NCBI GenBank assembly: GCA_938038445.1
Contig: CALHRZ010000004.1
Span: 1-64,000, forward strand
Direction of reading: 5' to 3'
Length of the DNA: 64,000 bases
Source of the DNA: an uncultured bacterium
GTDB lineage: Bacteria > Verrucomicrobiota > Kiritimatiellia > CAIKKV01
Part shown: in pieces, positions 29,085 to 62,842 of the stretch
Numbering within the stretch: position 1 is the stretch's first letter
Layout: every line of letters begins with the position of its first letter
Position numbers and translations under genes: made by a program
Notes under the pieces: generated by a model
The model's database searches: none
Seen by the model: only the letters and a program-made list of their open reading frames with translations
Told to the model about the DNA's origin: nothing

Positions 29085-29113
29085 ATAGTACCCCCAATAC
29101 ACTTATAATTCAA
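29085..29113 (-). promoter_or_regulatory. Sigma70-type promoter with GTATTG element (site 1)
   Basis: Read on the minus strand: -35 TTGAAT (29113-29108), 17-bp spacer, -10 TACTAT (29090-29085). The spacer holds GTGTATTGGGGG, shared with the promoters at 48502-48530 and 62815-62842. It precedes the GH42-like gene start by about 90 nt. Confidence 0.6.
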
Positions 29114-29156
29114 ACCTTATCGTAGGGGAGGCGAACGACCGGCGCACATGCTCCGT

Positions 29157-32100
29157 TTACCATTTGACTCCATTTCGGAAGATTGGAGGAGGGTCAATGG
29201 CGCGGACTTCGAATTCATGCCGGCCGGGCATGATCGGCACGATCAAGGTGTTGCCGATCGTCCCGGGGGCGTAGGTTTGGCCGTCGAGGACCAAAACGGG
29301 CAAGGTGTCGAGTGCCGGGGGAAACGACAGGTAAAGCAGACGGCCTTTGCCCTGGCTGGTTCCGACGACGCGATTGGAGTAGAAGGTCAGGTCAACGACG
29401 CCGGCGTCCGCGGCGGCCCCGATGGTTGCAGCCCATAGTCCATTGTGTTCGGCCCGTTGATCGCCGTGCAGCCGCATGCGGACGCGAGTGTCTTGTGGAT
29501 CCGCGTGGCATTCCGCGGGAGGTATTTTTGGATCGGCCAGGGGGTCGCAGACCACTTTTTTTCTATCTTGAACGAACCCTGCCAGACCTTGGAACGTCGG
29601 TTCCCGAATGGGATCAGGGCTCAGGAAGAGAGTTCGGGTTTCTTTTCCGCAGGTCACCCGTACACTGTCAGGCCCGACTTGTTCCGCGATTAATTCCGGG
29701 CTGTCGGCCCGTCGGGGATAGAGGATCACGAACAAGTCTTGTTGGACGGGTCCGACCGCATTGACGGTGAGAGTTTCTTCGACCGTAATGTAATCCGCGT
29801 GTTGCGAGTGGAGGATGGGGGAACCCGCTGCGGCCCAGCATCGGGCCGAAGCGTGGTAAAGGGGTGAGGGGTAGGTGACATCGCGGGACTCCAGCGTCGG
29901 CTGCGTCAGCCCAGGGAAGCGCACTTCCAGTGTGACGTTGCTATAGGCGGAGGCATAACGGAAACCGTCAGCCATGGGTTGAACTTGCTCTTTTGGGCCG
30001 AGGGTGCGCATGTTCCACCATATATCCGGGATTTTGTCGGGCGCACGGAAACTGTCCCGCAGCACGAAGTAGGTGTTTTCGCCTTTGACCATCAGGATCT
30101 GTCGGGTCCAGCGGACGCCGTTGTAATCGCCCCATGCGCGGAGGTAGTCTGCTTGGTCCGAGAAGTGATAGGCGGGGATGCCGCCATAGGCGCCTCCACC
30201 GGGCCAGCCACCATCACTGGCTTGACTTCCGAAGCGGGGGCGGTTGTGCCAGCCGAAGCGGCTATACAACTCGTTGATGACCTTTACCTGGTCCAGCGGG
30301 TATGCGTGCAAGCTCATGGTCACCAGGGGCGCGCCGTAGGCATAGAGAACGAAATCGCCTTGGTTTGCATCAGAGTGACTCACCAGGTAGCCATTGCGCA
30401 GCGTAAAGAAGATTTCCTTCGCAGTACCCGGCTTATCGCGTAGTGTGGCGCCGAACCCGGGCATCCATGTGCTGGAAAAGTTTGGGGGGAGGTAGTTTTT
30501 CGGAAGATTTTCCAAGAGATCGGCGTGGATTACCGTGTAGGGACTAAAGCCGTGGTCTTGGTGACTGGCCATGGGACGGCCCGTTTGGTCCCAAGCCCAG
30601 GCGAAGGCTTTGGCCAGTTCCGGATCTCGTCGGCGGTTCAGCGCGGCGGCGGACATCCAATGGGTGTTTTGAACGGCGCCTTCATGCCCCCAGCCTGGCA
30701 CGATTCGGGTGTTAAAACGGGGATCGGGCGAGCTTAAAAGGTCGAGGGTGAAGCGGGCAGGCAAGGTTGCCAGGCGAGCGAGGTTTTCATCGCGACGGCC
30801 GGCGTGTTCCAGAACCAACGCTCCGCGCACCAGACTTGGCGCGCTGGCCCCATAGTAGGAAATCAATTCGCTCCAAGCGCCCCCTGGAGCCGTATTCATC
30901 GCCAGCTTGTAGCCGATATAGATGCGGCTCAAATCCAGCCAGCGATCGGCGTGGGGATGATCCGGAATCAAAGCGGCGACCAGGGGAAGGACCATGAAGC
31001 GATTGATCGGCATGTTGGGGTTTCCCAAATGGACCATGCTGCCTCTGGGATTCGCATCGGGCTCGACGGCAGCGCTTGCAAGGGCGGCGAGCCAGGTCCG
31101 CAATTGGTCGCGGCGTTCCGGTTCGAGCTCTTTAAAAGCAAGCAGTTCGTCGGCTGTTGGGGCCCAGCCGGCCATATCCCCTTGAAGGAAATGCAAGAAG
31201 AGCCAGTTATTCCCTGAACCGCGTAACAGATTGAGGAGCTGACCCCGGGGTCCGTACCAAGGACTTGCTCCCATGAGGGAGTTCCAAAGGAGCTCTCTGC
31301 GTTTTGCGGACTCCTCAAAGAAACCCAGATCCTTGATTTGGTTGTAAGCGGGATGTTTTTGCAAGTTCTTTGAGACGGCGTTTATGTTTTCCGGCAGCAA
31401 AGCCAGGCGGGGGTGTTGCACGGACGGATCAGGCGGCCAATGTAGGATCCAATCCTTGTAATTGTCGAGATTGACGAACCCACGGTGGTTTCGGACGTCG
31501 TGGAGGGGTTGCTCATATCCGAAGGGTTTAGCCGGTTCATCCTTCAAAATCGCCATGGCGGACTCCTCGGGCGTGAGGATTTGTTTCGAACCGAAGGGTC
31601 CGAGGACCAGACCCCAACGCCGGCGCATGAAGGTTAAGGGGAGCATGGGATCGTATTCGCCGGTATGCAACAAGTTGCGGGGGTGGGGGGATGCCATCAG
31701 CATCCAATGCAAGGCCACATCGTCCGCTTGATGCGTGAAGAGCATGGCGGAGTGGGTGGCGGAATCGCCGCGCCAACTTCCTTGGTTCAACGGCACGACC
31801 GCAACGGCATTGGGGGTAAGGGAGACGAATTGTTCCACGTCGGCCAAACGGACCAGGCCGAAATACCAGGCCGTTTCATTGTTCCAAGGATACCAGGAGG
31901 CAAGGTTGCAGACCCATCGGTGGGGTTGGTCATAGGCCAATGAGATGGAGAACGGATTGCGAGGCGACGTGAATCCTGCCGCCTCGAGTGCCATCAGAAA
32001 GGGGGTGTGTTGGTGTTTCATCCTGTTTTCGGGGGAGACGCCGTAGACGACATCCGGCTTCCAACCCTGTTCACGCCAACCCGACGAGAGGGAAACCACC

Positions 32101-33005
32101 AGCCGCTGGGACCATCCATTACCGGTTCGTTTGAAATCGAACTGCTCGTCAATCTCGATCACGGAATCATCGGCGCAGAGGCGGACGGTCATTTCATACC
32201 AGCTCGTGGGCTGAAAGTCGTATCTTACGCGAGCTTCGACGAACAGGAGGCCTTGTTCGATGGCATCACACCGCATGCGCGTGAGGACCGGATTATCGTT
32301 GGTTTTCGAGCTCCAAAAGTAGCTACCGCCGGCCCATTGGCCGTCGGCCAGGCGGAAGCCCTTAATGGGGCCTGGGATAAACCCCGCGGCCAAAGGGTCG
32401 GTGTAAGAAGCGACCATGGTTTTGTGATTCTGTCCCCAGGCGAGAGGCTGGTGAAATTCCTGCTCACCCACCGGGGGCAGTCGAATGGCGGTTCGCCCAT
32501 TCTCAAGAATCAAACCGCTGCTGTCGGAAAGAACCGCAGGAGGAACGGGTGGGGCGGCAGAGGATTGGCCTCGGTGCAACTCGTAGCGAAAACGGCTGTT
32601 TGCTTTTAGATCAGTGAAAAAGGAGAGACGGGCCGATTCCACGGTTCCGTCCTTGGCCAGGCGAACACGCCACAATTGATAGGGGATCTCCTGACCATTT
32701 AGGGCATTGACCAAGCGCGCCTCGCCTGGCCTTATTCCCTCGGACAGTTCAATGCGCTTAGGGCCGATCGAAAACGAGCGGTCATCAAAGTTCGACTGAT
32801 CCGGCTGTTTTTCCTTGCCCTGCCTTGCGTGTTTTGCGCGGTGTAATTCATAGGTGATCAGCGTTTGCGGCCAGTTAATGCCGGTGATCTCTTGCGCTTC
32901 GAAGATGGCGAGGGGTTCTTCGGCGGCCATTCTCCCGCATGCAAAGATCAGCGCAGCCAGTCCAGTCCTCATCTGTTTGATATAGTTCTGTCTCATATAG
33001 CTCAT
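29157..33005 (-). CDS. Secreted heparinase II/III-like protein (first of four)
   Basis: A 1282-aa protein. It has a signal peptide region ('MRTGLAALIFACGRMAAEE', residues 12-30). An N-terminal domain ('PQTLITYELHRAKHARQ' with 'LSEGIRPGEARLVNALNGQE') is followed by beta-rich stretches; a helical toroid with 'HLGNPNMPINRFMV' near residue 655; and a C-terminal sandwich with 'HSDANQGDFVLYAYGAPLV' near residue 875, the heparinase II/III C-terminal pattern. This spacing of about 220 residues between the two motifs is the same in its paralogues. Family members cleave uronic-acid polysaccharides by beta-elimination; no substrate can be given. Start: the frame begins at GTG 33056 overlapping the previous stop (GTGA), with ATG at 33005, 32996 and 32972; a signal peptide favours one of the last three. 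Confidence 0.72.
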   Translation of the reverse strand: MSYMRQNYIKQMRTGLAALIFACGRMAAEEPLAIFEAQEITGINWPQTLITYELHRAKHARQGKEKQPDQSNFDDRSFSIGPKRIELSEGIRPGEARLVNALNGQEIPYQLWRVRLAKDGTVESARLSFFTDLKANSRFRYELHRGQSSAAPPVPPAVLSDSSGLILENGRTAIRLPPVGEQEFHQPLAWGQNHKTMVASYTDPLAAGFIPGPIKGFRLADGQWAGGSYFWSSKTNDNPVLTRMRCDAIEQGLLFVEARVRYDFQPTSWYEMTVRLCADDSVIEIDEQFDFKRTGNGWSQRLVVSLSSGWREQGWKPDVVYGVSPENRMKHQHTPFLMALEAAGFTSPRNPFSISLAYDQPHRWVCNLASWYPWNNETAWYFGLVRLADVEQFVSLTPNAVAVVPLNQGSWRGDSATHSAMLFTHQADDVALHWMLMASPHPRNLLHTGEYDPMLPLTFMRRRWGLVLGPFGSKQILTPEESAMAILKDEPAKPFGYEQPLHDVRNHRGFVNLDNYKDWILHWPPDPSVQHPRLALLPENINAVSKNLQKHPAYNQIKDLGFFEESAKRRELLWNSLMGASPWYGPRGQLLNLLRGSGNNWLFLHFLQGDMAGWAPTADELLAFKELEPERRDQLRTWLAALASAAVEPDANPRGSMVHLGNPNMPINRFMVLPLVAALIPDHPHADRWLDLSRIYIGYKLAMNTAPGGAWSELISYYGASAPSLVRGALVLEHAGRRDENLARLATLPARFTLDLLSSPDPRFNTRIVPGWGHEGAVQNTHWMSAAALNRRRDPELAKAFAWAWDQTGRPMASHQDHGFSPYTVIHADLLENLPKNYLPPNFSSTWMPGFGATLRDKPGTAKEIFFTLRNGYLVSHSDANQGDFVLYAYGAPLVTMSLHAYPLDQVKVINELYSRFGWHNRPRFGSQASDGGWPGGGAYGGIPAYHFSDQADYLRAWGDYNGVRWTRQILMVKGENTYFVLRDSFRAPDKIPDIWWNMRTLGPKEQVQPMADGFRYASAYSNVTLEVRFPGLTQPTLESRDVTYPSPLYHASARCWAAAGSPILHSQHADYITVEETLTVNAVGPVQQDLFVILYPRRADSPELIAEQVGPDSVRVTCGKETRTLFLSPDPIREPTFQGLAGFVQDRKKVVCDPLADPKIPPAECHADPQDTRVRMRLHGDQRAEHNGLWAATIGAAADAGVVDLTFYSNRVVGTSQGKGRLLYLSFPPALDTLPVLVLDGQTYAPGTIGNTLIVPIMPGRHEFEVRAIDPPPIFRNGVKW

Positions 33006-33052
33006 ATAGTTTTCATTGGTTTTTGAATTCGGGTGTTGAGAACAGGCCGTGA

Positions 33053-35155
33053 TCACCGGAGCATGATTACGGTTCCTTTTGGCGCATTTTCGCCCCAGAA
33101 GACTGTCCCGGCCGCGCCGGCTTGGTATCCGGTGCCACCATCGACACTCGTTCCGTTGTTTCCTGGCTGAGGCGTTCCCTCAAACGCGTGAATGGAACGA
33201 AATACCGCAATGCGACCCCCACCGCCACCGCCACCTAAGCTCCGTCCATTTCCTCCCCGCGCCTGCAGAACTCCGGACGCATTGCCCATGAACCGTTTGC
33301 ATTGGATGAAAATTCCACCGCCGGATCCTCCCCCATCCTGGTTATATAATCCTGACTCTCCATTAGCCGACAACGTGCCGTCAATTCGCACTTCTTGAGC
33401 CGCTATGATACGGATGGATCCTCCTCCGCTCCAGCCACGCAACGACTGTCCGCGTGCGGAGGCGCTGCCACATTCCACCGGGGCATTGGAAACTCCGTAT
33501 GCCGGCCCGCCGATGCCGCCTTCGCCCGACGCTGCCGAATTTCCCCCTTTCCCTCCATATCCTGCGCCTGCTATCCACCCATTGCCATTCCACGGACTTC
33601 CGCCGGGACCAAGACCTCTCGAAGTGTTCGTGGTGCCTGCATAACCTTTAGCATCGGCGTCAACCATGCCGTTTGTCAGAACAAAAAAGTTGCCTGCCGT
33701 AAAAAGAAGGGTGCCGCCATTGGTGGGATGCGCGTATGGATAAAGAATGGTGTTGGAGGAGACAACGAAATCTCCTTGCACTGCCACAAGTCCGGCGTCG
33801 GTCACCGCCTCGTTCGTAACTCCTCCGAAAACATGCATCCGAGCGTTGTTTCCTTCCAGGAGAATCGCGCCTGCGTCCATCCGTCTCAAGGAAGGATTCG
33901 GGCCGACATTCTGCCAATTCAGATCGAATCGGTCATTCAAGACGAAACTGTTTCCGACCGTGAGCCGTCCCGTGTACGTCAACCGAGTCCGCTCTTGACC
34001 GATTTGAATGGTCATATTGTTTTCCACCACCAGGTTGGTGAGTGACGTAAAGCGAAACCAGCCACTGCCCAAGGTCAAGTTACTTACCGACCATGACGTG
34101 AAACCAGGAATTACCACGTCTCCTCCTCCGTACATAGTGGCGCGTGGCCAGATCAACGAGTCGGGCAGCCAGATCGTGCCCGGTTCGCCCGACTCTGCCG
34201 CCCCGGCTTTAAACGTATCAAATCTGCCGGCTGCAATTTGGATTGAGGGAATCTCGAGCAGAGCTTGAGCGGCAGAATTGTATTCGATTGCCACTCGACC
34301 TCCGCCTCCCCCTCCGCCATAACCGCCACCATATCCACCGACAACACTGATCGTTCCGGTTCCGCCGATTGTATTGCAGGTAATCCATACCCCGCCACCC
34401 GCTCCGCCGCCGCTTTGGTTGCCAACGGATCCACCATCTGCTCGGATCGTTCCTTCCAGCCGCACATGTCCGCTTGCTTCGATTCGAATGGCTCCGCCAC
34501 CCGCTCCGCCGTTCGCCTGACCGAAGGCGCCGCCACTGCCAGGATCAACAGGATTGTTTGTTGATCCGTAGGTGCCTCCTCCAACGGCTCCTGTGCCGTT
34601 GCCGTTTCCCCCACGCCCTCCGTAGCCGCCGCCCGCGCTCCAGCCGCCGCTGCCAGGGTTTCCACCTCCAGGGCCCTTACCCGTTTGAGAATTCGATATC
34701 CCACCCACGTATCCCTTTCCATTCGCATCAATGATTTTTCCGGCAATAACTGTCAGGTTTGAACAGATGATCCACACGCGGTTGTCTGGCACCCACATGC
34801 CGAATTCGTTGGTGCTTGTTGCGGTTTGTGCGTTGTGCGTCATCGTAGCGTTGACGGTCACCTCTGTTGCCCGAAGCGCCGTGTTGGTGCCGAGGAAAGT
34901 CAAAGTTGCGTTATTTGAAAAAGCCGCCAGTTCAGGCGTGGTTTCATCGAGTGTCACGGCGTGGCTGATAATCACCTGGTCACCGGTCTGCGGCAGTCCC
35001 AACGTCCCGCCATCCGTCCATGTTGCTGTGTTGGTCCAATACCCGCTTTGTGCCGTGGTGCGTGTTGCCGCATGTGCTCCCCCTCTCCAGCCCAGCAGTG
35101 TGGCGACCGCCACTCCCAGAATCAACGTTTGGTTCAGAGTTATGGGATTGTTCAT
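33053..35155 (-). CDS. Secreted Gly-rich beta-structure surface protein with duplicated domain
   Basis: A 700-aa protein with a signal peptide ending near 'GGAHA' (residues 26-30). Two Gly-rich blocks of about 145 residues are similar: 'GPGGGNPGSGGWSAGGGYGG' (near 160) and 'GPGGSPWNGNGWIAGAGYGG' (near 520), each followed by 'GGGAIRIEA / GGSIRIIAA' and an all-Gly run. Between them lie beta-strand segments. The protein ends GTVIMLR, a tail also seen in the two other complete-ended paralogues. It has a strong AGGAGG before the ATG. It is probably exposed on the surface, perhaps to hold polysaccharide or the enzyme encoded downstream; this is inference. It is followed at once by a heparinase-like gene. 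Confidence 0.75.
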   Translation of the reverse strand: MNNPITLNQTLILGVAVATLLGWRGGAHAATRTTAQSGYWTNTATWTDGGTLGLPQTGDQVIISHAVTLDETTPELAAFSNNATLTFLGTNTALRATEVTVNATMTHNAQTATSTNEFGMWVPDNRVWIICSNLTVIAGKIIDANGKGYVGGISNSQTGKGPGGGNPGSGGWSAGGGYGGRGGNGNGTGAVGGGTYGSTNNPVDPGSGGAFGQANGGAGGGAIRIEASGHVRLEGTIRADGGSVGNQSGGGAGGGVWITCNTIGGTGTISVVGGYGGGYGGGGGGGRVAIEYNSAAQALLEIPSIQIAAGRFDTFKAGAAESGEPGTIWLPDSLIWPRATMYGGGDVVIPGFTSWSVSNLTLGSGWFRFTSLTNLVVENNMTIQIGQERTRLTYTGRLTVGNSFVLNDRFDLNWQNVGPNPSLRRMDAGAILLEGNNARMHVFGGVTNEAVTDAGLVAVQGDFVVSSNTILYPYAHPTNGGTLLFTAGNFFVLTNGMVDADAKGYAGTTNTSRGLGPGGSPWNGNGWIAGAGYGGKGGNSAASGEGGIGGPAYGVSNAPVECGSASARGQSLRGWSGGGSIRIIAAQEVRIDGTLSANGESGLYNQDGGGSGGGIFIQCKRFMGNASGVLQARGGNGRSLGGGGGGGRIAVFRSIHAFEGTPQPGNNGTSVDGGTGYQAGAAGTVFWGENAPKGTVIMLR

Positions 35156-36874: not shown

Positions 36875-38908
36875 TTATTGAGCTTGAGAGAGCAAGCGTT
36901 TGATGGCGGCGTGTCTCTCGAAGAAGAAGGGTTTCTGGGATTTACACGACGTAAAGGTTGTCCACAAGGCTGTGCCTTCTTGGGTGAGCGATTCCAGTTC
37001 TGTGCGGGCCCATTTACGGAACGGCCGATTGAGACATTTGTTTTCAACTTGCCATGACGTTTCGGTTTGAAGCCGCATAAGTCGGGCGGAATAGGCGAAT
37101 TCTTTCATGATCGTGCGCGTCGGTCCGTGCCCTTCGTATGCATCGCTTGCATGCCGGGCTTCCTCCGCCACTTGACGTGCCGCCACGACGTCGATGGACG
37201 AGATCCAAGGGGGCTTATGGCCACGCCGGCTGAGTTGGTTTGTGCATGCCAATGCGCGGCCAAGGCGTTCGACGCCGAAAAACCGTTCGGCCGCTTGTTC
37301 GTACCAGGCGCCGATTTGATCGTCGGGTGGGGCGGGGGAATGCGCCGCCCATGAGGTGGCGGCCAGGTGCGGCCAGTAATGGCCCAACGGCAGGCTGTGG
37401 CTTTCCCAGAGTGTGTTGATGAGGCCCAAGGCGCCGCGCGCCGCCCCGTAATCGGCGAACCAGAACGCGTTTTGGACCCTGTACATTCCGGGGCAGACGA
37501 CGACGTCAAAACCCATGGCACGCCAAACATCCACGGAGGGATATTTGCGGTGGAGGGCGTAATGCCAATCCAGCAAGATGATATCGCGGGGCAGGTCCTC
37601 TGTGGCGTCGGGGAAAGTCCACAACATGTCGTCCCACATCATCATGCGTTTTCCGTATGATTTCAGCACGTCATACAGACGCAGGATGTGATGGCGAAAG
37701 ATTCTACCGCGCGACCATCCAGGAAAGGTGCGGCGGCATCGTGGGCAAAGGCCGAGGTAGGCGGATTCGTCCGCATTGATATTGACGTAGGGCGAAAGAG
37801 ACGCTTGGCACAGTTCGGAAAAAACATTTTCCAGTAATGAGGCGGTTTCGGTATGCGCAACGCAGAGCTGGTATCCTCCCGAACCTTTCTCAGCAAGGTG
37901 GGTGTATTTCGGGTGGTTGAGAATACCTGGGCAGTGGCCGAGAGAGGTTTGGGAAGGGATCACGTCAATGCCCAATTTTGAGGCGGCGTGTTGAAGGCGG
38001 ACCAGATCCTTAAGTGTCCATGAGCCCGGCGGCGCGAATTCGGGGTGAGAGGGATAGGTCAAATGGTTTTCGAAATACATGAGAACGGTATTGAGCCCTT
38101 GAGCGGCGAGGAGCGGGAGCATTTTTTCCCAGTAGTCGGCGGTGAGAACGATGGCGCCGCGGCTGGTGTCATACATCATTCCGCGGAGATCGAACCTGGG
38201 GCAACTGGGCCACGGGCGGTTGGGCGCGATTGCGCGTCGGGAGGTTGGGCGTCGGACGGGCACGGATTGCCTGGAAAAGCGGAGATGAGGATAGAGCGGC
38301 TTGGAGTCATAGGCATACCGTGGCTTCTTTTCCAAAGCCCAATACGACCACTGAAAGCCCAGTTTGTCGTTGCGGCAGAGATTGCCGCGCCAAACATCTC
38401 CCGCTTCAGGGGCGGGAAGGTCGAGTGCCTCGAATGGAATTGCCAGTTCAAACTGCCAGCCGTGGAATGTGAGCCTGGCTGCGGCGTGCGTTCCGTTTAG
38501 GGGCATAAATCTGAGCGTGCCCCAACCTGGGTTATCGATGACCCGTCGAGCCAGACCGATTGCGCCGGCTGGGTTGACGGCGATTACAAAGGCTTCGATG
38601 TCGGGAATACCGGGGTCCAGATAGATCTCGACGCAGTCATCATTCCCAACCTGATCGGGAGATTGGGCGTCGGATTTGAGGAGGGCAAGGCGCTCGTCCT
38701 GGCACCGAAATGCGGCATACAGGTACCGTCGGTCCCACAGCATGGCGGATGATGTGGGTTGGTGGGTTTCCCGTTCCGTTTCCACGGATATAAAGCGATC
38801 CACCCACACGGCGTCATGCCAGGCTGGGCTTTCGATCCAGCCATCCATCGCGGGAGGGACTCGGGTGAAACGGATTTCATAGATCGGCAATTTAAAGGGT
38901 ATTTTCAT
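36875..38908 (-). CDS. GH20-like glycoside hydrolase with N-terminal CBM9-like domain
   Basis: A 677-aa protein with no signal peptide. Residues 1-200 resemble a CBM9-like fold ('DGWIESPAWHDAVWV', 'AAFRCQDERLALLKSDAQSP', 'DDCVEIYLDPGIPDIEAFVI'). Residues 230-580 form a TIM barrel with 'DLRGMMYDTSRGAIVLTADY' and 'YVNINADESAYLGLCPRC', where D380-E381 correspond to the conserved Asp-Glu pair of GH20 hexosaminidases. The C-terminal part is helical. The start at 38908 is chosen from TAGGGAAAT placed about 8 nt before it. A poor GTATTG element at 38936-38944 is upstream. An N-acetylhexosaminide substrate is possible, and being cytoplasmic it would act on imported oligosaccharides. Confidence 0.72.
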   Translation of the reverse strand: MKIPFKLPIYEIRFTRVPPAMDGWIESPAWHDAVWVDRFISVETERETHQPTSSAMLWDRRYLYAAFRCQDERLALLKSDAQSPDQVGNDDCVEIYLDPGIPDIEAFVIAVNPAGAIGLARRVIDNPGWGTLRFMPLNGTHAAARLTFHGWQFELAIPFEALDLPAPEAGDVWRGNLCRNDKLGFQWSYWALEKKPRYAYDSKPLYPHLRFSRQSVPVRRPTSRRAIAPNRPWPSCPRFDLRGMMYDTSRGAIVLTADYWEKMLPLLAAQGLNTVLMYFENHLTYPSHPEFAPPGSWTLKDLVRLQHAASKLGIDVIPSQTSLGHCPGILNHPKYTHLAEKGSGGYQLCVAHTETASLLENVFSELCQASLSPYVNINADESAYLGLCPRCRRTFPGWSRGRIFRHHILRLYDVLKSYGKRMMMWDDMLWTFPDATEDLPRDIILLDWHYALHRKYPSVDVWRAMGFDVVVCPGMYRVQNAFWFADYGAARGALGLINTLWESHSLPLGHYWPHLAATSWAAHSPAPPDDQIGAWYEQAAERFFGVERLGRALACTNQLSRRGHKPPWISSIDVVAARQVAEEARHASDAYEGHGPTRTIMKEFAYSARLMRLQTETSWQVENKCLNRPFRKWARTELESLTQEGTALWTTFTSCKSQKPFFFERHAAIKRLLSQAQ

Positions 38909-39031
38909 ATTCATTTCCCTATTCGAGCAGGTTTTCCAATACACGACGAAGAATTGTCGGAGCGTTCCAAAGCTTGATCCATTGTTTCACGCGGGGCGGG
39001 GATAACCTGTTTCACGAAGGCGCCGAGCGTC

Positions 39032-48494: not shown

Positions 48495-48501
48495 ACTTGC
48501 C

Positions 48502-48530: not shown

Positions 48531-48614
48531 GAATTATTAATTTTTTTATGTGAACAGGGGACAGAGAGGATCCATCGGTTTTGGGGCAACGAGGGGCGAA
48601 TTCTCAGGTTGCCC

Positions 48615-52244: not shown

Positions 52245-52292
52245 AATTTCATTTTCCTTTTCGGGTTCGGATACGATGAAGCGTTCGAGGGT

Positions 52293-55200
52293 TTACGGTT
52301 GGGGGTGTAGCCGTGCCAAGTAGAAATGGCGCAATGCGGGCAATGTTGCGTTTTTCAGCGCTTCGAGATCGCGCAAGTGTTCGGGAGGGGTTTCCCGAAC
52401 GTAGGCCAGAGCGAGGGGGAGGGATTTGCGAGAGTCGGCTTCGGCCAATGCGCGGGCGATGGCGCGTCGGATCACAGGCGTTGTCCCAAGGTGTTGCGGC
52501 CTGAACCACGGGCGAATGTCCCGGATGGCCTGGGCGAGGTCCAGGATGGCTCGTTCGCAGTGTTGGAGCGCTTGCCGCTGCTCGTGGCCATCTCCGCCAA
52601 ACCGGAGGGCTTGAGCGAGCGCTGCCTGGCGATTGGCGAGCACCCAATGTTGACGCCAGTGGTAGTAGGGAAGGTCGAGACACGCCTTTGCCAGCAGGTA
52701 GGCGGTGTGCTCATCCTGCCTGCCGCAACGCCACAGGGCCCACAGGATGTAGGGACGGTACAAGCGGGTGGTATAGAAATCCGGAACGTTGCGGTAGTGG
52801 ACGGCGGCCCATTGGGCTTCCTGCGCGTCGAGTTCGGCATTGCGTTGTTGGAGGAACGGAATGGCGGCCGGGTCTCCCACAGTTGCCAGGCAGCGCAAAC
52901 GGGAGAGATCGGAGAGAGACCAATTCAGGATATTCTGGGCCGCAACCGTTGGGAGGGCTGTCGCCGCCAGTTCGCCTACCAGGTCATTCAACTGATGCGG
53001 AGGCGCAGCGACGAATCGCGCGGCCAATGTTTTCCACGGGGCGCTTTTTCCCAAACGGGGACGGGCGAGACGGACGAGTTCGGGATATGCCAACGGATCA
53101 ATCCGTCCGGCATGTTCGAGCCAATAGGTCACGGCGTTCAAGGCATCGGAATCGGATCCGTCGGCGAGAAGGATCCGCAGTCGCTCGGCGACCTCCATCT
53201 GTTGTTTTCGATCCCTCTCCCTTTCCTCAAGCAACGCCGTGAGTGCCGTCTCTTGGAGCCAGGCGCGGGCGTCATCCACCCGCTTTGTTCTCGCTGGGTC
53301 GGGGGGGGTTACGGTGTTCGCCCCTTGGGCCAGGTGTTGCAGGCAGTGCTGAGCCACTTTGGGCCACCAGGCGCTCTGCCACCAAGGGGATTCCGGTTGC
53401 CCCGAATTGGAAGCGGCCCATACGATGGCGCGTCCTTGGCCATAGGGTCCGGCGACGAGAAGCGGCACGCCGGAACGGGTTTCCATCAGCACCTGGCTGC
53501 CGGGTCGGGGTTCGATGTGGCTGATCCATTCGACGGAGGGTTTGTCGCCAAAATCGGGGGGCGTTGTGCCAAGCACTTGAGTGAACGCCGCTGTGGCTCG
53601 CACGGTTCCATCCATGGGGCGTACGCGGCGCAGGTAGGTCTGTTGGCGGGTGCGGACGGGCAACGCCTCCTCGAGGAACGATCCTTCGTATTGGCCTTTG
53701 GAGAGGGAGTACCAACTGCCGATGGCAAACACCCCCCCACCGCCGGCTACGAAATCCCGCAGGTCTCGGCGTTGGGCCAAAGAGAAGGCGGGGGCGGGCA
53801 CCGCGTCGAGCAACACGATGTCATAGCGCGCCAATTCGGCACGATCGGGCCAGGGGTGCATGGAGCCGGGATTTTGAGGAGAAAGGTCGGATAATCCGGA
53901 GATGCCCCGCATGATCGCTTCCTGTGCGACGGCTCCTTCCAGCATTGCATACGCTTCTTCCAACCGATGGCGATGGGAAAACGCGCCCCGCGCGTGCAAA
54001 ACGTCCGGATGTCCGTTTCGCGCGAGGGGCAGCGGCTCCGCCGGCTTTGGGTCCCATCCGGAATCGCGACCGCTTCGATGCGTCTCGAAGGAAACGGGTT
54101 CGTAGAGGACATCCCCGGGGGCGGTATCCGGGGGCAATCCCAGCGCGAGCGCTTTGTCGAGCACCTCGGGGGTAATCGGGATCCGGCCTTCGTTGATCGC
54201 GCGGATGGTGTTCTCGTCCAAATCCCCTTCGATCCGAAGAGCATCCATTTGGACGGGATCGGGGCACAGGGTATGCAACGGAGGCGCTTCGGGAGGATGG
54301 TCCAGCTCGATCACGACCATCGTCCAGAGATTGAGTTCGGGGATCGTGAGGCGGCCGTTTTCGAAGCGGGAAGGTTGCGGTTGAAAATCGTCTCGATCGC
54401 CCACGGCGAAGAGGTTTGCCACCGTGCAGCCCGGAGGCAGGGAGAGTTCGAAGGGGATTTGAGTCTGCGGGGGATTGAGATGGGTTGGGGGAGTCGAGGG
54501 GGTGCCGAACGTCGTGGCGTCGTTGAGATTGACCAGTTGAAGAATGAGTTGAAGGCGGGTGGGAGAGACCGACCGTTCGTACACGAAGGCATCCCATCGG
54601 AACGGCAAGTCGCCGACCGGTTTCAGAAAGTGGGCGGGATTCAAAAGGCGGCGCAGGGCGGGATCCAGAATAAACCGGGAGAACCGGGTGGCGAATCGGC
54701 GCAACGCGGGGGATCCGCCACCCATCGGGCGACTTCCTGCCGCGAAGAGGAGCGCTTCATTCCACGGGGTCTGATCGTCGAAAACACACAGGTAATAACC
54801 GCCATGGAGGCGGATGAAATCGCCCACATTTTGGAGGTGCCTGATGTTGTGGCTTGCGGGACCTGGCAGGTTCCGGTAGTACTCATCCATGCACAGACCG
54901 CCGCCGCGCGCTCGGGCGGCCAGGCACACGTCGGTGAACGCGCCTTTCCGCTCGCTATGCCGGGAGTCGATGGCGTTGTAGCCGAAGGCGAACTGAGGGA
55001 CCTGTTTGCGGATATGATCCTCGGCGATCTTGATGAGGCAAGCTGAAGAAATCGGGGTCAGGGACGACCATTCGCCATCGTAGCGCACGCCGTTCCAACC
55101 GAGCAATTGGGCGGAGCGGGCGATTTCGTCGCACCCGTAGAACGTCGTGGCGTGATTGCCAGGATGGGTCCAACACGAGATCCACATCTGCCAGAAATCC

Positions 55201-56648
55201 TCGTCTTGGCCGTGACTCCGGTAACGGCCTTCCAGCATTCGGTCGATCACGTCGACATCGAAAGCCTCATGGGCGAAGCCGGCATGGCCGAAGACATGCA
55301 TCCGTTCAGGAAAGGCGTGACTGTACTCGAGTCCCGCCAAGCCGCCGCCACAGGCTTTCCCATAGGTGATGGCGGCGATTCCGTAGCGGGAGAAGACGCG
55401 ATGAAGAATCTGGTAGGCGGAACGTTTCGAGGTGTATTGGGTCTGGCCCGAATAAATGGTCGAATCGTCTTTGGGCGTCATTTCGGAATAGTCGCAGGCG
55501 GCCCAGGCAAACTTCTCATACACATTGCAATAGCGTTCCATATTCTCGCGGGCGATCCGCTCGGCCTCGGCCACCGCCTGTTCTTCGGTCCATGATTCCG
55601 AGCCGAACATGGGGACGCCTCTTCCGTGAATCGCGACCATCCAGGGGTTGGTGACCACGCTCACCGCATGGGTTCCGATGTCTCGGCCGCGCGCTGTTGT
55701 GACGTGGGCTTCAAATCCCCGCCCCCACAAGGGTTCCCCGACGGCGAATGGGGCGGTTCGGCGCACCCGGCTCCGCGGGGGCAAGGCGAGCGATTCCACC
55801 AAGAGAGGGTGGCGATTGGTCAATTCCGTCATCATCATCGTTGTAAGTCGGGCGGCTTGATCCTGATCGGACAAGTTCTCCAGTTCGACTGTTAAGGTGC
55901 CGTGGCTTCCTGGCGAATAGGTGATGCGATCGCTCGAAACGTGGGTCACAATGACCGGCCCGGATAGAGGGATGACGCGGAGGGTCTCGAGAAGAATCAT
56001 GGGGATCTTTCTTCCGGAGATATCCGTCACGGTCGCCTCTTTGACATGTGCCAGGAGCGACTCCAACTCCTTGTCTTTTTCGGTGGTCTCGTGTCCATCG
56101 TGTGGAGGGGCGAGGGAATGCCAGGGGTCTCCGAGATCGAGGGCCGTGAGGCGATTCCATTCGTTTTGCATTTCCGGAGAACGGCTGGCGGAGGGCATGA
56201 TTTCAAGAGTGAGCGTTTTTTCTCGGTTGACGATGTCGATCGCGAGGGGGCGGCCCTGGTCGAGGGTTTCGATGGTTTGGCTATCCCGAACATTCTTGGC
56301 GTTCAGAGCAACGGTTCTTTTTCGGAGGTGGACGCCTTGCCTGTTGGAACGGAGGGTTGCTTCGATTCGGTAGCGCCCGGGGTGGAGGTCCAAGCGCATG
56401 GACCAGCCCTTGTCTTCGACGAGGACGCCTTCCGGTCCGGCGGTTCCGATTCGTGCCGGATGACCGGGCAATGATTTGCCGCGCCATTCGGTCTCTTCTG
56501 CAAGTCCGGCCTGGAAAGCAAGCCATGCGGCGGCGAGTGGGAGGGCCATGCAAAGGTTCCGGAGGCGGAGGTGTTTGGGGTTTGCTTTCCGTGGGGTGGG
56601 CGTTTCGGCTGTCGGCGGTAAGGAGAACGGGGTGATCCTTCTCATCAT
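52293..56648 (-). CDS. Large secreted multidomain protein with GH66-like barrel
   Basis: 1451 aa. A hydrophobic segment ('MALPLAAAWLAFQAGLA', residues 34-50) should be the signal, preceded by a 33-residue tail if the ATG at 56648 is used; the ATG at 56549 gives a standard signal peptide instead. After beta-sandwich regions ('HPGRYRIEATLRSNRQGVHL') a barrel-like part has 'VYEKFAWAACDYSEMTPKDD' near 385 and 'LGWNGVRYDGEWSSLTP' near 535, recalling GH66 dextranase-type enzymes. A glutamine-amidotransferase-like domain follows ('RRDLRDFVAGGGGVFAIGSW' near 960, 'GPYGQGRAIVWAASNSG'), then helical repeats to the end. I do not recognise the whole architecture; the substrate is unknown. It follows the UroD-like gene by 4 nt. 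Confidence 0.6.
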   Translation of the reverse strand: MMRRITPFSLPPTAETPTPRKANPKHLRLRNLCMALPLAAAWLAFQAGLAEETEWRGKSLPGHPARIGTAGPEGVLVEDKGWSMRLDLHPGRYRIEATLRSNRQGVHLRKRTVALNAKNVRDSQTIETLDQGRPLAIDIVNREKTLTLEIMPSASRSPEMQNEWNRLTALDLGDPWHSLAPPHDGHETTEKDKELESLLAHVKEATVTDISGRKIPMILLETLRVIPLSGPVIVTHVSSDRITYSPGSHGTLTVELENLSDQDQAARLTTMMMTELTNRHPLLVESLALPPRSRVRRTAPFAVGEPLWGRGFEAHVTTARGRDIGTHAVSVVTNPWMVAIHGRGVPMFGSESWTEEQAVAEAERIARENMERYCNVYEKFAWAACDYSEMTPKDDSTIYSGQTQYTSKRSAYQILHRVFSRYGIAAITYGKACGGGLAGLEYSHAFPERMHVFGHAGFAHEAFDVDVIDRMLEGRYRSHGQDEDFWQMWISCWTHPGNHATTFYGCDEIARSAQLLGWNGVRYDGEWSSLTPISSACLIKIAEDHIRKQVPQFAFGYNAIDSRHSERKGAFTDVCLAARARGGGLCMDEYYRNLPGPASHNIRHLQNVGDFIRLHGGYYLCVFDDQTPWNEALLFAAGSRPMGGGSPALRRFATRFSRFILDPALRRLLNPAHFLKPVGDLPFRWDAFVYERSVSPTRLQLILQLVNLNDATTFGTPSTPPTHLNPPQTQIPFELSLPPGCTVANLFAVGDRDDFQPQPSRFENGRLTIPELNLWTMVVIELDHPPEAPPLHTLCPDPVQMDALRIEGDLDENTIRAINEGRIPITPEVLDKALALGLPPDTAPGDVLYEPVSFETHRSGRDSGWDPKPAEPLPLARNGHPDVLHARGAFSHRHRLEEAYAMLEGAVAQEAIMRGISGLSDLSPQNPGSMHPWPDRAELARYDIVLLDAVPAPAFSLAQRRDLRDFVAGGGGVFAIGSWYSLSKGQYEGSFLEEALPVRTRQQTYLRRVRPMDGTVRATAAFTQVLGTTPPDFGDKPSVEWISHIEPRPGSQVLMETRSGVPLLVAGPYGQGRAIVWAASNSGQPESPWWQSAWWPKVAQHCLQHLAQGANTVTPPDPARTKRVDDARAWLQETALTALLEERERDRKQQMEVAERLRILLADGSDSDALNAVTYWLEHAGRIDPLAYPELVRLARPRLGKSAPWKTLAARFVAAPPHQLNDLVGELAATALPTVAAQNILNWSLSDLSRLRCLATVGDPAAIPFLQQRNAELDAQEAQWAAVHYRNVPDFYTTRLYRPYILWALWRCGRQDEHTAYLLAKACLDLPYYHWRQHWVLANRQAALAQALRFGGDGHEQRQALQHCERAILDLAQAIRDIRPWFRPQHLGTTPVIRRAIARALAEADSRKSLPLALAYVRETPPEHLRDLEALKNATLPALRHFYLARLHPQP

Positions 56649-56652
56649 GGCG

Positions 56653-57585
56653 TCAATATCCGGCGTTTTTCCAACATTCATCCCAAAAAGCGCGTTCATT
56701 CGCTTTTGGGGCGCCAATGAGCAGTTGGTCAGGGGCTGCAATCCAGCCGCCGCCGGGTGCCCAAACCGCGAAAGCGGCGCGGACTTCCGCCGACACCTTC
56801 TCCGGCGTTCCGGTATGGACGATCCGCGAATCGATTCCGCCCAGAACGGCCATTTTGCCGCGGACCTGCTCCTTGACGCGGCGGCGGTCATTGGCCGTGA
56901 CCTGGACTGGGTTCAGAATGTTCACTCCCACAGCCATGAGGTCGGGAATGATCCGTTCGATCGCACCGCAGGAGTGAAAATCAATCAGCACTCCTCGGCG
57001 TTTGGGTTCTTCGAAACAGGCTTCATAGGCGGGGAGCAAAAACCGGCGGAAGAGTTCCGGTGAAAGCATCAGATCGTGCTGGGTGCCCAAATCTTCACTT
57101 ACGTGCAGAACATCAATGCCTAAATCCAAGAGGCGATGGATGCAGACGCGGTTATAGTCGACGATGCCGTTGATCAAGCGCTGCAACCGATCGGGATCTT
57201 CATAGAGGGCCAGCATAAAATTCTCCATTCCCATGAGGCAGCAGAGGCGTTCGCACACAAACTTGATGTGGCTGCCGCCCACGAGGATATCCCGTTGTTT
57301 TAGCGCTTCGAGATGACGCTGGTCTTCGTCGGTCCATGTCAACGCCCAGGGGTCGGGGAGCGCATAGTGGTCGAAGTCGGCGAGATTGGCCAAAGGGTGT
57401 CCCACGTCGATCGGGACCATTCCGGGCTGTTCGGCCTGCCAGACGACGCCCCAGGGATCGGTCCAGGATTCGTATCTGAAGTTGCCGCCGAGTTGGACAG
57501 CCTCCCACACGGTTCCGTCGAAGACGGGGACTCGGGCGGAAGGATTGAAATGGAGGGCGGCAAGCGTGTTGGCTCGGGTGTTCAT
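56653..57585 (-). CDS. Uroporphyrinogen decarboxylase-family protein (methyltransferase-like)
   Basis: The 310-aa protein has the URO-D barrel fold seen in both HemE and the corrinoid methyltransferases MtaA/MtbA. The block 'GVLIDFHSCGAIERIIPDLM' carries the H-x-C zinc-type ligands of the methyltransferase branch, and 'VGVNILNPVQVTANDRRRVK' and 'MAVLGGIDSRIV' follow. This pattern and the sugar-degradation context point to a cobamide-dependent methyltransferase or an uncharacterised branch rather than haem synthesis. The corrinoid protein at 1888-2526 would be a natural partner. ATG at 57585 has no strong ribosome site. The next gene starts 4 nt beyond its stop. Confidence 0.82.
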   Translation of the reverse strand: MNTRANTLAALHFNPSARVPVFDGTVWEAVQLGGNFRYESWTDPWGVVWQAEQPGMVPIDVGHPLANLADFDHYALPDPWALTWTDEDQRHLEALKQRDILVGGSHIKFVCERLCCLMGMENFMLALYEDPDRLQRLINGIVDYNRVCIHRLLDLGIDVLHVSEDLGTQHDLMLSPELFRRFLLPAYEACFEEPKRRGVLIDFHSCGAIERIIPDLMAVGVNILNPVQVTANDRRRVKEQVRGKMAVLGGIDSRIVHTGTPEKVSAEVRAAFAVWAPGGGWIAAPDQLLIGAPKANERAFWDECWKNAGY

Positions 57586-57667: not shown

Positions 57668-60600
57668 CTACAATTCCGTTGAAGTTTCCAAGGGGGTGAA
57701 GGTGACTTTTCCGTCGGGCGATCGGCTGAATACAGCCGCGGCGCCCGTGACGGGTTGGCCTTCGATGGAGTATTGACCTGGAGTTGGCGCCAACAGCACG
57801 GTGTCCACCCGACCGTTTGCGAACGTCACCCGGATGGCGTTACCCTGGAGCAGAGTCTCGAATTGGGGGGGCGGTTCCTCTGTTTTTCGAGGGGCCAGAA
57901 CGGTGAAGAAACCTTCCCCGGGCTTTTGAAGGATTTGCAGCAGGATTTGTTCTTCGCGGAACGGTTTTCCGAAGGTTTTTTGGTAGTGGCTTCCGAATGG
58001 GCCTGGGCCGGCGTTGGAGTGACCGACCTTATGGGTGACCGGTGCGAAGGATGCCGGCTCAGCCACATAGAGATCCAGATCAACGCCATGCTGACCCATC
58101 CAGGTGGCACGGGGTCCTTCCACCTTTACGTCATCGGCCAGACACCAGTAGTTGAGCGCAGGGGTAAGCGAGGGGTTGCCCGTGAGAGTGTCGCGAATGA
58201 CCAAATAGTGAGGACCTTGGACATCCGGGCTTTTGACGAAGGCGACCTGCCGGCGCCACTCGATTGGGGAATCGAGCCAAACGGATTCAGGCTCGCCGCG
58301 GCCGAGGAATTGGCCGTGGGAGGGTGCGAGCATGTAAGGAACGCGGTCGAGATAGCGCGTGCGGCGGCGCATGGCGGCGTAGTCGGCCTGTGGGGACGAC
58401 ACGAAGGAGTCGGCCCGGCCGAACACTTCATCCAGATCGGTTGCATCGGGGGGCCAGCCTATTTCGAGGCAGGTGAACGGTTCCGTTTTGTGTTCGACCC
58501 AGACCTTTCCGGTGAAATAGCAGCCTGGCGAGTCGCGGCCGGGGCAGGGACGGACTTCCTCGCGGTGGTCGAAAGTCACCATGCCGTTGTGCAGCCAGGA
58601 TTGGCTGATGCTTGGGGAATATTGGCTGGCGAAATCGAGCATCAGCGGGGCGCCTTTGGCGTAGAGGATGAATCCGTGCCGATCCGAGTGGCCGTGGCCG
58701 ATGGCGAAACCGCCGCAGTTGAGGTTGACGTAAGTTTCTTCGGGATGAGGGAATCCGCTGCGGAGGACGAAACCGCTGCCGGCGAAATGCGTGGAGCGCA
58801 GGTCGGGCGTTTTGGGTTCAAGGTCGGTCGGCACCAGCAATCCCGGAGGGGTGCCATGCGAGGCGAGCGAGGCGGCATTTTCTAGAATGCCCCACATGAG
58901 GGTTGCAGCCAATTCCCGATCTCGTGAGGCGAGGGCACCGACAAGAAATGGGAAAGCAAGCTCGACGGCGAGCGGGGAGTCGCCAATCGGGGCGGCAGGG
59001 CGGATGCCGCCGCGCACATCGGGCGGAGTCAAGTAGGACAATCTGTAACGTGCGGCGGCCTGCCAAAGCGGGAGCAGATCGGAGAAATCCAGGGTGGGGT
59101 CGGCGTCGGCCAGCATTATGGTAGGAACGGTAGCGAACTCAATCGCCATCACCCCATAGGCGCCGATCTCGAGTGTGGCACCGGCGGGATTGATCTTTTC
59201 GTGTGCGTTGAGTTTGATGAAGCGGGCCAGAAAGTTGCGCCAGAGTGGTCCGTTGGGGTGATTGGGCAGGAGGGCGACCATCGGCGTGGCCCCGCGCAGG
59301 CGAAGGGCTTCCATCATGTTGGCCGAGCCCCAGCCGTAACCGGCCTCGCGCGGCGGCACGTAGTCAGGCGACAGCGCGTTGTAGGCGCAAGCGGCGGCGT
59401 AGCGACGAATCCGGCTCGCCTCCTCGGGGGCGCACTCTGGCGCGGCAAGCGCCACGTCGGCCAGCCAGGCCAGCCGCGGCAGGTTCATGGCGTAACCGTT
59501 GTGATCGAGCCCGACGGTCGCCATGCGGCGGCACATATCGCCCAGAGAGCCGATTGCCGAGGCGACGACCCTTTGGCCGGCAGCGGGATCACTGCTGTTC
59601 AAATAGCTGGAGGCCGGGTGGATATCTCCGACCAGCCATTTCCGGGCGCGCTGACGCAACTCCTCCCGATTTCCAGGGTCTCCGTGAAGGCGGGGGTAAA
59701 GGGCAGTTTCCGGATATTCGAGCACCCAATCCTTGATTTCATCGAGTTGTTGGCGGCCGTGGCGGATGTGCTTGAGCATCAACCGGCTTGGAGGGAGGTC
59801 TTCTGCATTATAAGTTCCTTCGAGAGCCGCAATGGCATAGACTCTTCGACCCAGCATGACAGGCGCGCGGAGGAAGAGATCAGACCTGGCCTGCCGTTCG
59901 ATCCAGAGGTTGTTGGTCTGAGTCCATTGTTTGATCGTCTTGATCGGCTTGGGATCCAGGTCAGGGTTGATCCATTGGGAAGGGCGCAATCCGATGATAG
60001 CCACTTCCCGTCCCTTTTGGGGATTGTAGGCGCCGAAGAAAAGCGCCTCGTCCGAACCCCAGTTCAGAAAAGCGTTGATGCTGACGATGCGGCTGTCCTT
60101 GTCCATGGGCAGGGGTCGCCAGACGGTTCTGTGAGGAGTTCCGTGGGAGTCCACTCCGGGGAAGAGGTGGAACATGCGGCCACTCCACTGGCAATGGGTG
60201 GGTTCGAGTCCGTCGTGGAAAGCGAAGAAGTAGGCGTTGGGTGAAGGGACTTTCCCTCCCGTGCCGCTCCACCAGTCCCACAGCAGCCCGCGGTCGGGTG
60301 GGTCGAACTTTGGAAGAACGAAACGATATGTTTCTCCAGGTTCTCCTGGCAGTTCGGGCATTTCGTACGCGCGGCCATCGCCCAGGTTGAACTCTTCGCG
60401 AACGATGGCCAGGTCTTGGCCTGCATTGAGTTCAATTGTTGCCGCGTAGCCGGTGTTGTCTTCGAAGTCATACCGCAGTTTGACGCGGGCGAAGACCGGC
60501 CCGCGTTCTTCGATCGTGACCGTGTAGCCTCGGCACGCGCGTTCCGTCTGCCACCATCCTCGCCCGATCCATGTGCCGTCTGGGAACCGGATGGCTTGGA

Positions 60601-61105
60601 TCGGGGCGGGGATATGGGCAGGGGAAGCGGGCGGGTCGAAGCGGTGAGAGCCGCCGGGCAAGCGAATGCCGAACCGGGAGGTGGTCAACTCGACCGTGCG
60701 CTCGTGTTCGGCGACATTCAAGTCGGAGGCGACTGGTGCCGTGGCTGTTTTTTCGGCCTGCAGCGTCCAGGATGCGGTTTCGTCGGGCTTTAGGCTCGCC
60801 ATAAAAGAGATCGTGGCGGATCGGATCGTCTGGCCATCAGGCCAGAGCACGACGTCCGAAAGTTGCACGGGAGCGGACGTTTCCTCCGCGGTTGTCAATC
60901 GTGCCCCATTGCGCCTCATTACGCCCTCAGGAAACTCGACGCGATAATTGACGCGGTCCGGACCCCAAGCGATTCCAAACGGCTCGTGAATCGTGAACGT
61001 TTTCTCAAATGCTACCGTCTGAAGGGTTCCAGCCAGGGTCAGGGCGAGAACGGGACCTGCCCATGTGTTGATTTTCCAGTTGAGCGACGATGGAAATATC
61101 GGCAA
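57668..61105 (-). CDS. Secreted heparinase II/III-like protein (fourth of four)
   Basis: 1145 aa from a TTG at 61105 with AAAGGAAAG 7 nt upstream; the signal peptide runs to about residue 33 (cleavage near TVA). Near residue 593 'WGSANMMEALRLRG' and near 803 'GHGHSDRHGFILYAKGAPLM' occupy the places of the two conserved motifs; the second is the best match in the window to the H-x-H-x-D type of the heparinase II/III C-terminal sandwich. 'IGHGHSDRHG' with the following 'LDFASQYSPS' is the most canonical version. The gene follows the broken beta-protein gene, just as the first copy follows the intact one. Substrate unknown. Confidence 0.78.
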   Translation of the reverse strand: MPIFPSSLNWKINTWAGPVLALTLAGTLQTVAFEKTFTIHEPFGIAWGPDRVNYRVEFPEGVMRRNGARLTTAEETSAPVQLSDVVLWPDGQTIRSATISFMASLKPDETASWTLQAEKTATAPVASDLNVAEHERTVELTTSRFGIRLPGGSHRFDPPASPAHIPAPIQAIRFPDGTWIGRGWWQTERACRGYTVTIEERGPVFARVKLRYDFEDNTGYAATIELNAGQDLAIVREEFNLGDGRAYEMPELPGEPGETYRFVLPKFDPPDRGLLWDWWSGTGGKVPSPNAYFFAFHDGLEPTHCQWSGRMFHLFPGVDSHGTPHRTVWRPLPMDKDSRIVSINAFLNWGSDEALFFGAYNPQKGREVAIIGLRPSQWINPDLDPKPIKTIKQWTQTNNLWIERQARSDLFLRAPVMLGRRVYAIAALEGTYNAEDLPPSRLMLKHIRHGRQQLDEIKDWVLEYPETALYPRLHGDPGNREELRQRARKWLVGDIHPASSYLNSSDPAAGQRVVASAIGSLGDMCRRMATVGLDHNGYAMNLPRLAWLADVALAAPECAPEEASRIRRYAAACAYNALSPDYVPPREAGYGWGSANMMEALRLRGATPMVALLPNHPNGPLWRNFLARFIKLNAHEKINPAGATLEIGAYGVMAIEFATVPTIMLADADPTLDFSDLLPLWQAAARYRLSYLTPPDVRGGIRPAAPIGDSPLAVELAFPFLVGALASRDRELAATLMWGILENAASLASHGTPPGLLVPTDLEPKTPDLRSTHFAGSGFVLRSGFPHPEETYVNLNCGGFAIGHGHSDRHGFILYAKGAPLMLDFASQYSPSISQSWLHNGMVTFDHREEVRPCPGRDSPGCYFTGKVWVEHKTEPFTCLEIGWPPDATDLDEVFGRADSFVSSPQADYAAMRRRTRYLDRVPYMLAPSHGQFLGRGEPESVWLDSPIEWRRQVAFVKSPDVQGPHYLVIRDTLTGNPSLTPALNYWCLADDVKVEGPRATWMGQHGVDLDLYVAEPASFAPVTHKVGHSNAGPGPFGSHYQKTFGKPFREEQILLQILQKPGEGFFTVLAPRKTEEPPPQFETLLQGNAIRVTFANGRVDTVLLAPTPGQYSIEGQPVTGAAAVFSRSPDGKVTFTPLETSTEL

Positions 61106-61120
61106 TTTTCTTTCCTTTCA

Positions 61121-61641: not shown

Positions 61642-62808
61642 TCAGTTTTTTCGTTTCCGCGTCGTTTCTCCCACAATAAACTCCGGCTCCAAAACCACCG
61701 GGGTCTTGCCGTTCCATCCCTCCAGAACACTCAGCACGACATCGGCCACGATCACTCCGTGCGCCACCGGATCCATTTCAATACGTGTCAACGGCTTGGA
61801 GAAGACCGGTCCCAGACCCCGGTTGGCCCAGGTGGCAACCTGGACGTCCTCAGGAATACGGATCCCATGCTGAACCAGGGCGAGGAGGGCGCCTCGCGCG
61901 ATAAAATCGTCGCTAAAGTAAAACAGATCGGGCCGATCGTGTTTTTCGGCCAACCAGGTCTGCATTGCAGACAGCCCGCCCCGTTCCGTCGCCTCCGGAT
62001 TCCGGAACCCGGAGGGTTGTTGCACGTCGAGCCAGGCGCATTGGACGCCCGTAGCCCGCAGGGCAGCCGCCAACATGGCCACCCGTTGGGAAATCGGATC
62101 GCCGGGGGCGCGCATGACGGCGATGCCGACCGTTCGGATCCCGCATTGTCGGCAATGGTGCGCCAAGGCGCGGTACGCATGGATCACCGAGAGCACAATA
62201 TCGGCTTGCCTGTTGCGAGCTGTTGCCGATGTGGCATCGTCCAGGCAGATGTAGGGGGCTCTGAAATCGGCCAGTACATCTAGAAGCGAGGGGCCCGATC
62301 CGCCGAACGTTATCCCCTGGCCTCCTTCGGCGAGCACAAGGTCCACCGAGCGGGTTTCAAGGATGGCCCGCAGTTCGGCGTATCGGTTCATGTGGGAGGC
62401 GGCGTTCAGATGGAGATCGGTCACCAGATAGCGCTGGGCGTGGAGGCGGCGGGTGATCTCAGCGGCCTGCACCGTGTGGTAATACATATCGGGGCCAGAC
62501 CAGGCGCAGAAGAGGACATGCCCGCGCCAGGAATGGCGTGCTCGGTCACAGACGAGGATGCCGCGGCGCGGTTTAGGCGCCACGAAGCCCTCCTGTTTGA
62601 GTTGCGCCAAGGCACGCCGGATCGTGATGTCGTTGACGCCGAGTTCGGCGGCCATCTCGAGTTTGGTGGGCAGCCGATCTCCGGGCTTGAAGTGCCCGGT
62701 GATGATGGCATGGCGCAACCCCTCGGCCACCTGGTCGGTGAGAGTTTTGCAAGACTGCCGCTCGATGCGGAATGGCAACCCTCGTCTCGCGGTCGCGGTG
62801 ACTTTCAT
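61642..62808 (-). CDS. GntR-type / LacI-like hybrid transcriptional regulator (second)
   Basis: 388 aa. Residues 15-75 form a GntR winged helix ('LTDQVAEGLRHAIITGHFKP' ... 'LPTKLEMAAELGVNDITIRRAL') and residues 95-385 a LacI-type sugar sensor ending with 'GIRIPEDVQVATWANRGLGP' and 'PLTRIEMDPVAHGVIVADVV', which is the usual LacI-family C-terminal pattern. ATG at 62808 sits within a few nt of a promoter carrying the shared GTATTG element, which suggests it represses its own gene. The upstream GTG at 62823 would overlap the -10 box. It is the best candidate regulator of the other two GTATTG promoters. Confidence 0.85.
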   Translation of the reverse strand: MKVTATARRGLPFRIERQSCKTLTDQVAEGLRHAIITGHFKPGDRLPTKLEMAAELGVNDITIRRALAQLKQEGFVAPKPRRGILVCDRARHSWRGHVLFCAWSGPDMYYHTVQAAEITRRLHAQRYLVTDLHLNAASHMNRYAELRAILETRSVDLVLAEGGQGITFGGSGPSLLDVLADFRAPYICLDDATSATARNRQADIVLSVIHAYRALAHHCRQCGIRTVGIAVMRAPGDPISQRVAMLAAALRATGVQCAWLDVQQPSGFRNPEATERGGLSAMQTWLAEKHDRPDLFYFSDDFIARGALLALVQHGIRIPEDVQVATWANRGLGPVFSKPLTRIEMDPVAHGVIVADVVLSVLEGWNGKTPVVLEPEFIVGETTRKRKN

Positions 62809-62814
62809 ACCGAT

Positions 62815-62842
62815 ACAATACACCCAATACGCTTTTTTGCAA
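62815..62842 (-). promoter_or_regulatory. Sigma70-type promoter with GTATTG element (site 3)
   Basis: Minus-strand reading: -35 TTGCAA (62842-62837), 16-bp spacer, -10 TATTGT (62820-62815). The spacer holds GCGTATTGGGTG as in sites 1 and 2. An A/T tract (62845-62860) is just upstream. The ATG of the regulator (62808) lies at the predicted transcript start. Confidence 0.62.

Follow-up and report, generated by a model that had tools for sequence, protein, structure and literature searches.

Direct-repeat operators have been described in the GntR family as exceptions, namely for NanR, FarR and NagQ (PMC4494728, PMC8012715) and also for MocR (PMC5320631). E. coli NanR, a GntR regulator of the FadR subfamily, recognizes a (GGTATA)3 operator, of which at least two closely spaced repeats are required, and its repression is relieved by sialic acid (PMC8012715). 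This operator is described as lying downstream of the polymerase-binding site, and NanR carries an N-terminal extension for cooperativity and a helical FadR-type effector domain (PMC8012715). FarR (TGTATTAWTT repeats) and NagQ (TGGTATT repeats) belong to the HutC subfamily and are exceptions among palindrome binders (PMC4494728), and the MocR regulators, often present as several paralogues per genome, have many direct-repeat operators (PMC5320631). AraR of B. subtilis, the characterised GntR-LacI chimera, recognizes palindromic sites, At(T/A)tGTaCGTAcaa(A/T)T, which frequently occur in spaced pairs and form loops; the araR gene carries its own operator, and AraR controls polysaccharide and sugar genes (PMC4218819). 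The literature searched yielded no account of GntR-LacI regulators with direct-repeat operators and nothing relevant on regulators in Kiritimatiellae.

Within the window (the whole stretch of 64,000 nucleotides analysed here), positions 61642-62808 of the minus strand encode a regulator of 388 aa, P0001, with a GntR winged helix near the N terminus and a C-terminal LacI-type sugar-binding domain (Peripla_BP_3). The former matched Pfam PF00392 (E = 1.3e-17; 63.6 bits against a cut-off of 27) and the latter PF13377 (E = 1.2e-18; 68.2 bits against a cut-off of 26.5), which places P0001 in the GntR family with an effector domain of the LacI/GalR type. A sequence search of the PDB matched LacI and PurR structures among 31 sequences at E ≤ 0.001; the AraR DNA-binding-domain entries 4EGY, 4EGZ and 4H0E (cited in PMC4494728) were absent from these 31. 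The NCBIfam NanR model matched the helix-turn-helix of P0001 only (28.6 bits against a cut-off of 260), and the effector domain is not of the helical FCD type. The same cluster holds a second GntR-type regulator, P0002 (35219-36265, minus strand), recognized by its Pfam GntR domain.

Three minus-strand promoters, singled out in a first-pass annotation as sharing an element, were recovered with the coordinates, hexamers and spacers of 17, 17 and 16 bp that it had given. Site 1 (29085-29113; -35 TTGAAT, 17-bp spacer TATAAGTGTATTGGGGG, -10 TACTAT) precedes a GH42-like gene (26551-29043, minus strand; PF02449, E = 1.3e-6), site 2 (48502-48530; -35 TTGTCT, 17-bp spacer AATGGGTGTATTGAGTG, -10 TAGTAT) precedes the gene of a large lipoprotein of 1061 aa (45309-48494, minus strand), and site 3 (62815-62842; -35 TTGCAA, 16-bp spacer AAAAGCGTATTGGGTG, -10 TATTGT) is the promoter of the P0001 gene itself. 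The product of the site 2 gene had been called a lyase-like lipoprotein; its lipoprotein signal, MKVLCVAMAGITLTGC, upholds the second word, whereas the first is unbacked by Pfam and NCBIfam, which gave no family match, and by the PDB, which gave no meaningful one, and it is by eye that the protein is judged a possible polysaccharide lyase. The start codon (ATG) lies 7 nt after the -10 at site 2 and 6 nt after it at site 3; these two transcripts would start on the ATG or directly beside it, and both mRNAs are probably leaderless. At one relative (L044) the start codon is likewise close to the -10 (6-7 nt), and that mRNA, too, is probably leaderless.

The cluster also holds, on the minus strand, a GH20-like gene (36875-38944; PF00728, 5.6e-10), a GH2-like glycoside hydrolase gene (48615-52244; PF02836, 6.4e-12), a gene for a 1532-aa protein with a GATase1-like domain (52293-56891; PF07090, 1.9e-7) and, next after the regulator, one for a 1145-aa protein (57668-61105) whose C-terminal heparinase II/III-like match is very weak (PF07940, E = 0.15, below cut-off). 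Three of the cluster's proteins are very large (1061 to 1299 aa; 45309-48494, 39032-42631 and 29157-33056), matched no Pfam family above cut-off and are possibly undescribed polysaccharide-active enzymes.

Across the three sites the element has the consensus GYGTATTGR/GKGTAHTRT (first half, G[CT]GTATTGR), an 18-bp direct repeat with a period of 9 bp, in which copy 1 lies in the spacer between -35 and -10 and copy 2 overlaps the -10, giving most of its bases. The element had been placed immediately before the -10; it is indeed present there at all three sites, but its extent was drawn too short, since the repeated unit continues into the -10. The putative operators, on the minus strand, occupy 62815-62832 at site 3 (GCGTATTGG followed by GTGTATTGT, a 9-bp repeat in the register of the family), 48502-48519 at site 2 (GTGTATTGA followed by GTGTAGTAT) and 29085-29102 at site 1 (GTGTATTGG followed by GGGTACTAT), where the second copy is the weakest of the three sites (repeat match 5/9). 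Directly upstream at site 2 (48520-48528) stands a degenerate third 9-bp copy, GTCTAATGG, with the period kept. The 9-bp repeats were not reported by an automated repeat search, because the copies are short and imperfect.

When the genome (34 contigs, 3.07 Mb, 92% complete) was scanned with the 18-mer GYGTATTGRGKGTAHTRT, matches with 0 or 1 mismatches were confined to the three window sites, all in this cluster. At up to 3 mismatches there were 32 matches in the whole genome, compared with 31 for a reversed-pattern control, so the weaker matches are background; two matches with 2 mismatches apparently fall within coding sequence. The common core GTATTGRGKGTA occurred four times in the genome (the three sites and once, apparently, inside a coding frame) and four times in the control, a count not above chance, and significance thus rests on placement. 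Placement was assessed by comparing the 18-mer of the P0001 promoter with the 100 bp upstream of each of the other 15 minus-strand genes. The genes of site 1 and site 2 scored 4 and 4 mismatches, and the remaining genes all scored 8 to 10; the number of such genes expected in shuffled sequence was 0.004, and two were reached in 0 of 3,000 shuffles. An independent scan for a promoter plus repeat recovered only sites 2 and 3 within the window; over 18 neighbourhoods and the window its matches were mostly known regulator operators, and shuffled sequence gave 0.5 matches per 100 kb. A partial match, GTGTATTGG, previously proposed at 38936-38944 before the GH20-like gene, was rejected as a site: the second copy is absent, and the upstream region scores 8 mismatches, which is background.

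Of 288 genomes sampled from the same class, 45 contained homologues of P0001, the best of them 30 to 38% identical, and many paralogues per genome were common. Close orthologues were sought in the family, order and class, where the best sequence was at most 38% identical and none was found; the nearest homologues (48% and 42% identity) come from one genome of another class in the phylum. The exact spelling GYGTATTGRGKG is not conserved elsewhere in these data, P0001 having no close orthologue. The regions upstream of the homologues contained about 40 strong promoters resembling TTGACA-N16-18-TATAAT, with -35 boxes stronger than those of the three window promoters, and in most of them a direct repeat of 9-bp units extends across spacer and -10, in register with the three sites of the window. 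Examples are TTGGGTATT with TTGGGTATA, GTGGCTATA with GTGGCTATA and TTTGTTATA with TTTGTTATA; the nearest homologues have TTGCGGCTA with TTGCGTATA (48% identity) and CTGGTATGC with CTGGTATAT (42%). The spelling varies among paralogues while both copies in a promoter covary, and one subgroup, whose recognition helix differs, has the repeat displaced by one base. Identity between repeat copies at an offset of 9 was 0.579, compared with 0.468 after column shuffling (z = 6.2; all other offsets ≤ 2.2), and mutual information in these promoters was enriched at column pairs 9 bp apart. No signal of an inverted repeat was found in the homologue promoters at any of the range of centres scanned. Many family members lack a recognizable promoter of their own, and some have a promoter without the repeat.

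We compared operators with recognition helices in 27 non-redundant regulators selected as repeat-bearing. Operator distance correlated with recognition-helix distance (r = 0.64, P = 0.0002); the correlation was lower for the remainder of the winged helix (0.49) and for the effector domain (0.37). P = 0.0002 is the floor of the permutation test, and the P values are indicative only, because the regulators are related and hence not independent data points, and because having a repeat was the condition for entering the set. The partial correlation between helix and operator given the effector domain was 0.58 (P = 0.0002), and among 301 pairs with effector identity under 40% the helix retained r = 0.63 (P = 0.0002), against 0.12 for the effector domain. 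Such covariation is the pattern that would be expected if each regulator reads its own repeat. It also bears on the possibility that the sites are read by P0002 or some other factor instead of P0001, which we consider improbable. P0002 has a GntR domain and lies inside the cluster, and a regulator may control genes without autoregulation; however, the element was not found in its upstream region (9 mismatches to the P0001 18-mer), whereas one of the three sites is P0001's own promoter, and the homologues of P0001 share the layout, the register and a spelling matched to the helix. P0001 is the likely reader because the promoter of P0002 itself is without the element.

The restriction of the repeat to this family was assessed in five homologue-bearing genomes, where every promoter with both hexamers perfect (-35 and -10) was taken as the control set, 41 in total. 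The 12 regulator promoters (one with a truncated gene) averaged 8.1 of 11 repeat matches, compared with 3.0 in 28 others (Mann-Whitney P = 1e-6), and among the 41 a strong repeat (≥ 7/11) always stood before genes of P0001's family. The 41st promoter, at locus L153 (TGTCCCATT followed by TGTCATATA), fronts a gene adjoining a family regulator, and its spelling fits the regulators of that helix type; on this basis it is a putative target-gene operator and not a case of autoregulation. At L153 the regulator (about 1561-2632) has no promoter of its own, and the next gene (2674-4653) is, by eye, probably glycoside-hydrolase-like. In the relatives' neighbourhoods that were scanned, L153 was the sole target-gene operator and the remainder were autoregulatory; beyond each regulator's own operator, further copies there were essentially nil (extra cognate matches, 1.4 vs. 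1.0 per 100 kb). Of the four such matches, three belong to the window and the fourth is an overlapping shift. At another locus (L152, 2961-3125) a family regulator gene is truncated with its direct-repeat promoter (TTGAGTATG followed by TTGAGTATA) still intact.

These controls also speak to a reading without any regulator, in which the element would be a promoter feature of the extended -10 type for RNA polymerase or an alternative sigma factor. Its constant placement, directly before the -10 and reaching into it, would suit such a feature; yet the spelling differs with each family member, the two copies changing together, other perfect promoters of the same genomes have no repeat, and this genome has the element just three times, so that this reading is very improbable. 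Sites 2 and 3 (48480-48545 and 62800-62870, minus strand) have flanks in common, with TAAAAAAATT preceding the -35 and TATGAAAGT where the gene starts, which suggests promoter copying or an UP-like element; given these flanking bases the two sites may not be independent, one possibly having been copied from the other. That they are merely one duplicated promoter, with the element inherited without function, is hardly to be expected, since site 1 has the element without those flanks, the repeat positions fit the family-wide register, and common ancestry is compatible with function.

We consider it most likely, with a probability of roughly 0.8, that the three sites are operators of P0001, through which the regulator would repress itself and the two other cluster promoters over the -10. 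The repeats before the homologues, their restriction to the family and their covariation with the recognition helix point to this reading, and they make the first-pass proposal of a repressor site the best explanation. We propose repression and not activation on account of the position over the -10, which likewise implies that P0001 is an autoregulated repressor. In the mechanism that we propose, P0001 without ligand would bind the two 9-bp half-sites, which have the same orientation, via its two winged-helix domains, with one dimer bending round to both copies, or else as a pair of adjacent dimers, the arrangement known from NanR. Occupation of both half-sites would sterically block RNA polymerase from the -10 at P0001's own promoter and at those of the GH42-like and lipoprotein genes in a polysaccharide-degradation cluster. 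The repression would be lifted when a sugar released by the cluster enzymes binds to the LacI-type domain. Each member of the large paralogous family would have its own spelling of the head-to-tail operator.

With some reserve, we lean towards a wider interpretation: P0001 would belong to a lineage-specific, large family of GntR-LacI repressors that recognize 9-bp head-to-tail repeats incorporated into the -10 and not palindromes, diversified among paralogues such that residues of the recognition helix predict the spelling of the operator. Each genome would thereby possess many private switches for sugar clusters, written in a natural code that can be read. If this is right, an operator type could be assigned to a large and little-studied family of sugar-responsive regulators of polysaccharide degraders, and the gene targets of P0001's family would become predictable from sequence. 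The family would exemplify a normally symmetric type of regulator that reads asymmetric, head-to-tail DNA, and the covariation of helix and operator would offer many natural variants for probing base choice by GntR winged helices.

Compared with the described systems, the organization of NanR, FarR and NagQ (at least two head-to-tail half-sites at a fixed short spacing) is found both at the window sites and in the homologues. P0001 resembles NanR in its GntR winged helix and in head-to-tail repeats of the GGTATA type at the promoter, but has a LacI-type effector domain and sites whose second repeat extends over the -10. The direct repeats of FarR and NagQ are very similar even in their letters (TGTATT and TGGTATT, compared with GTGTATTG and TGGGTATA here), whereas their effector domain is of the HutC type. 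The MocR regulators differ in having an aminotransferase-like effector domain, and their head-to-tail dimers are thought to be suited to wider-spaced repeats. With AraR, P0001 shares the GntR winged helix, the LacI-type sugar-binding domain and, putatively, an operator at its own gene and the control of polysaccharide and sugar genes; in place of the AraR palindromes, we find here a 9-bp direct repeat (z = 6.2). P0001 thus combines an operator geometry like that of NanR with the architecture of AraR and, with direct-repeat operators as opposed to AraR palindromes, is as tested a member of neither group.
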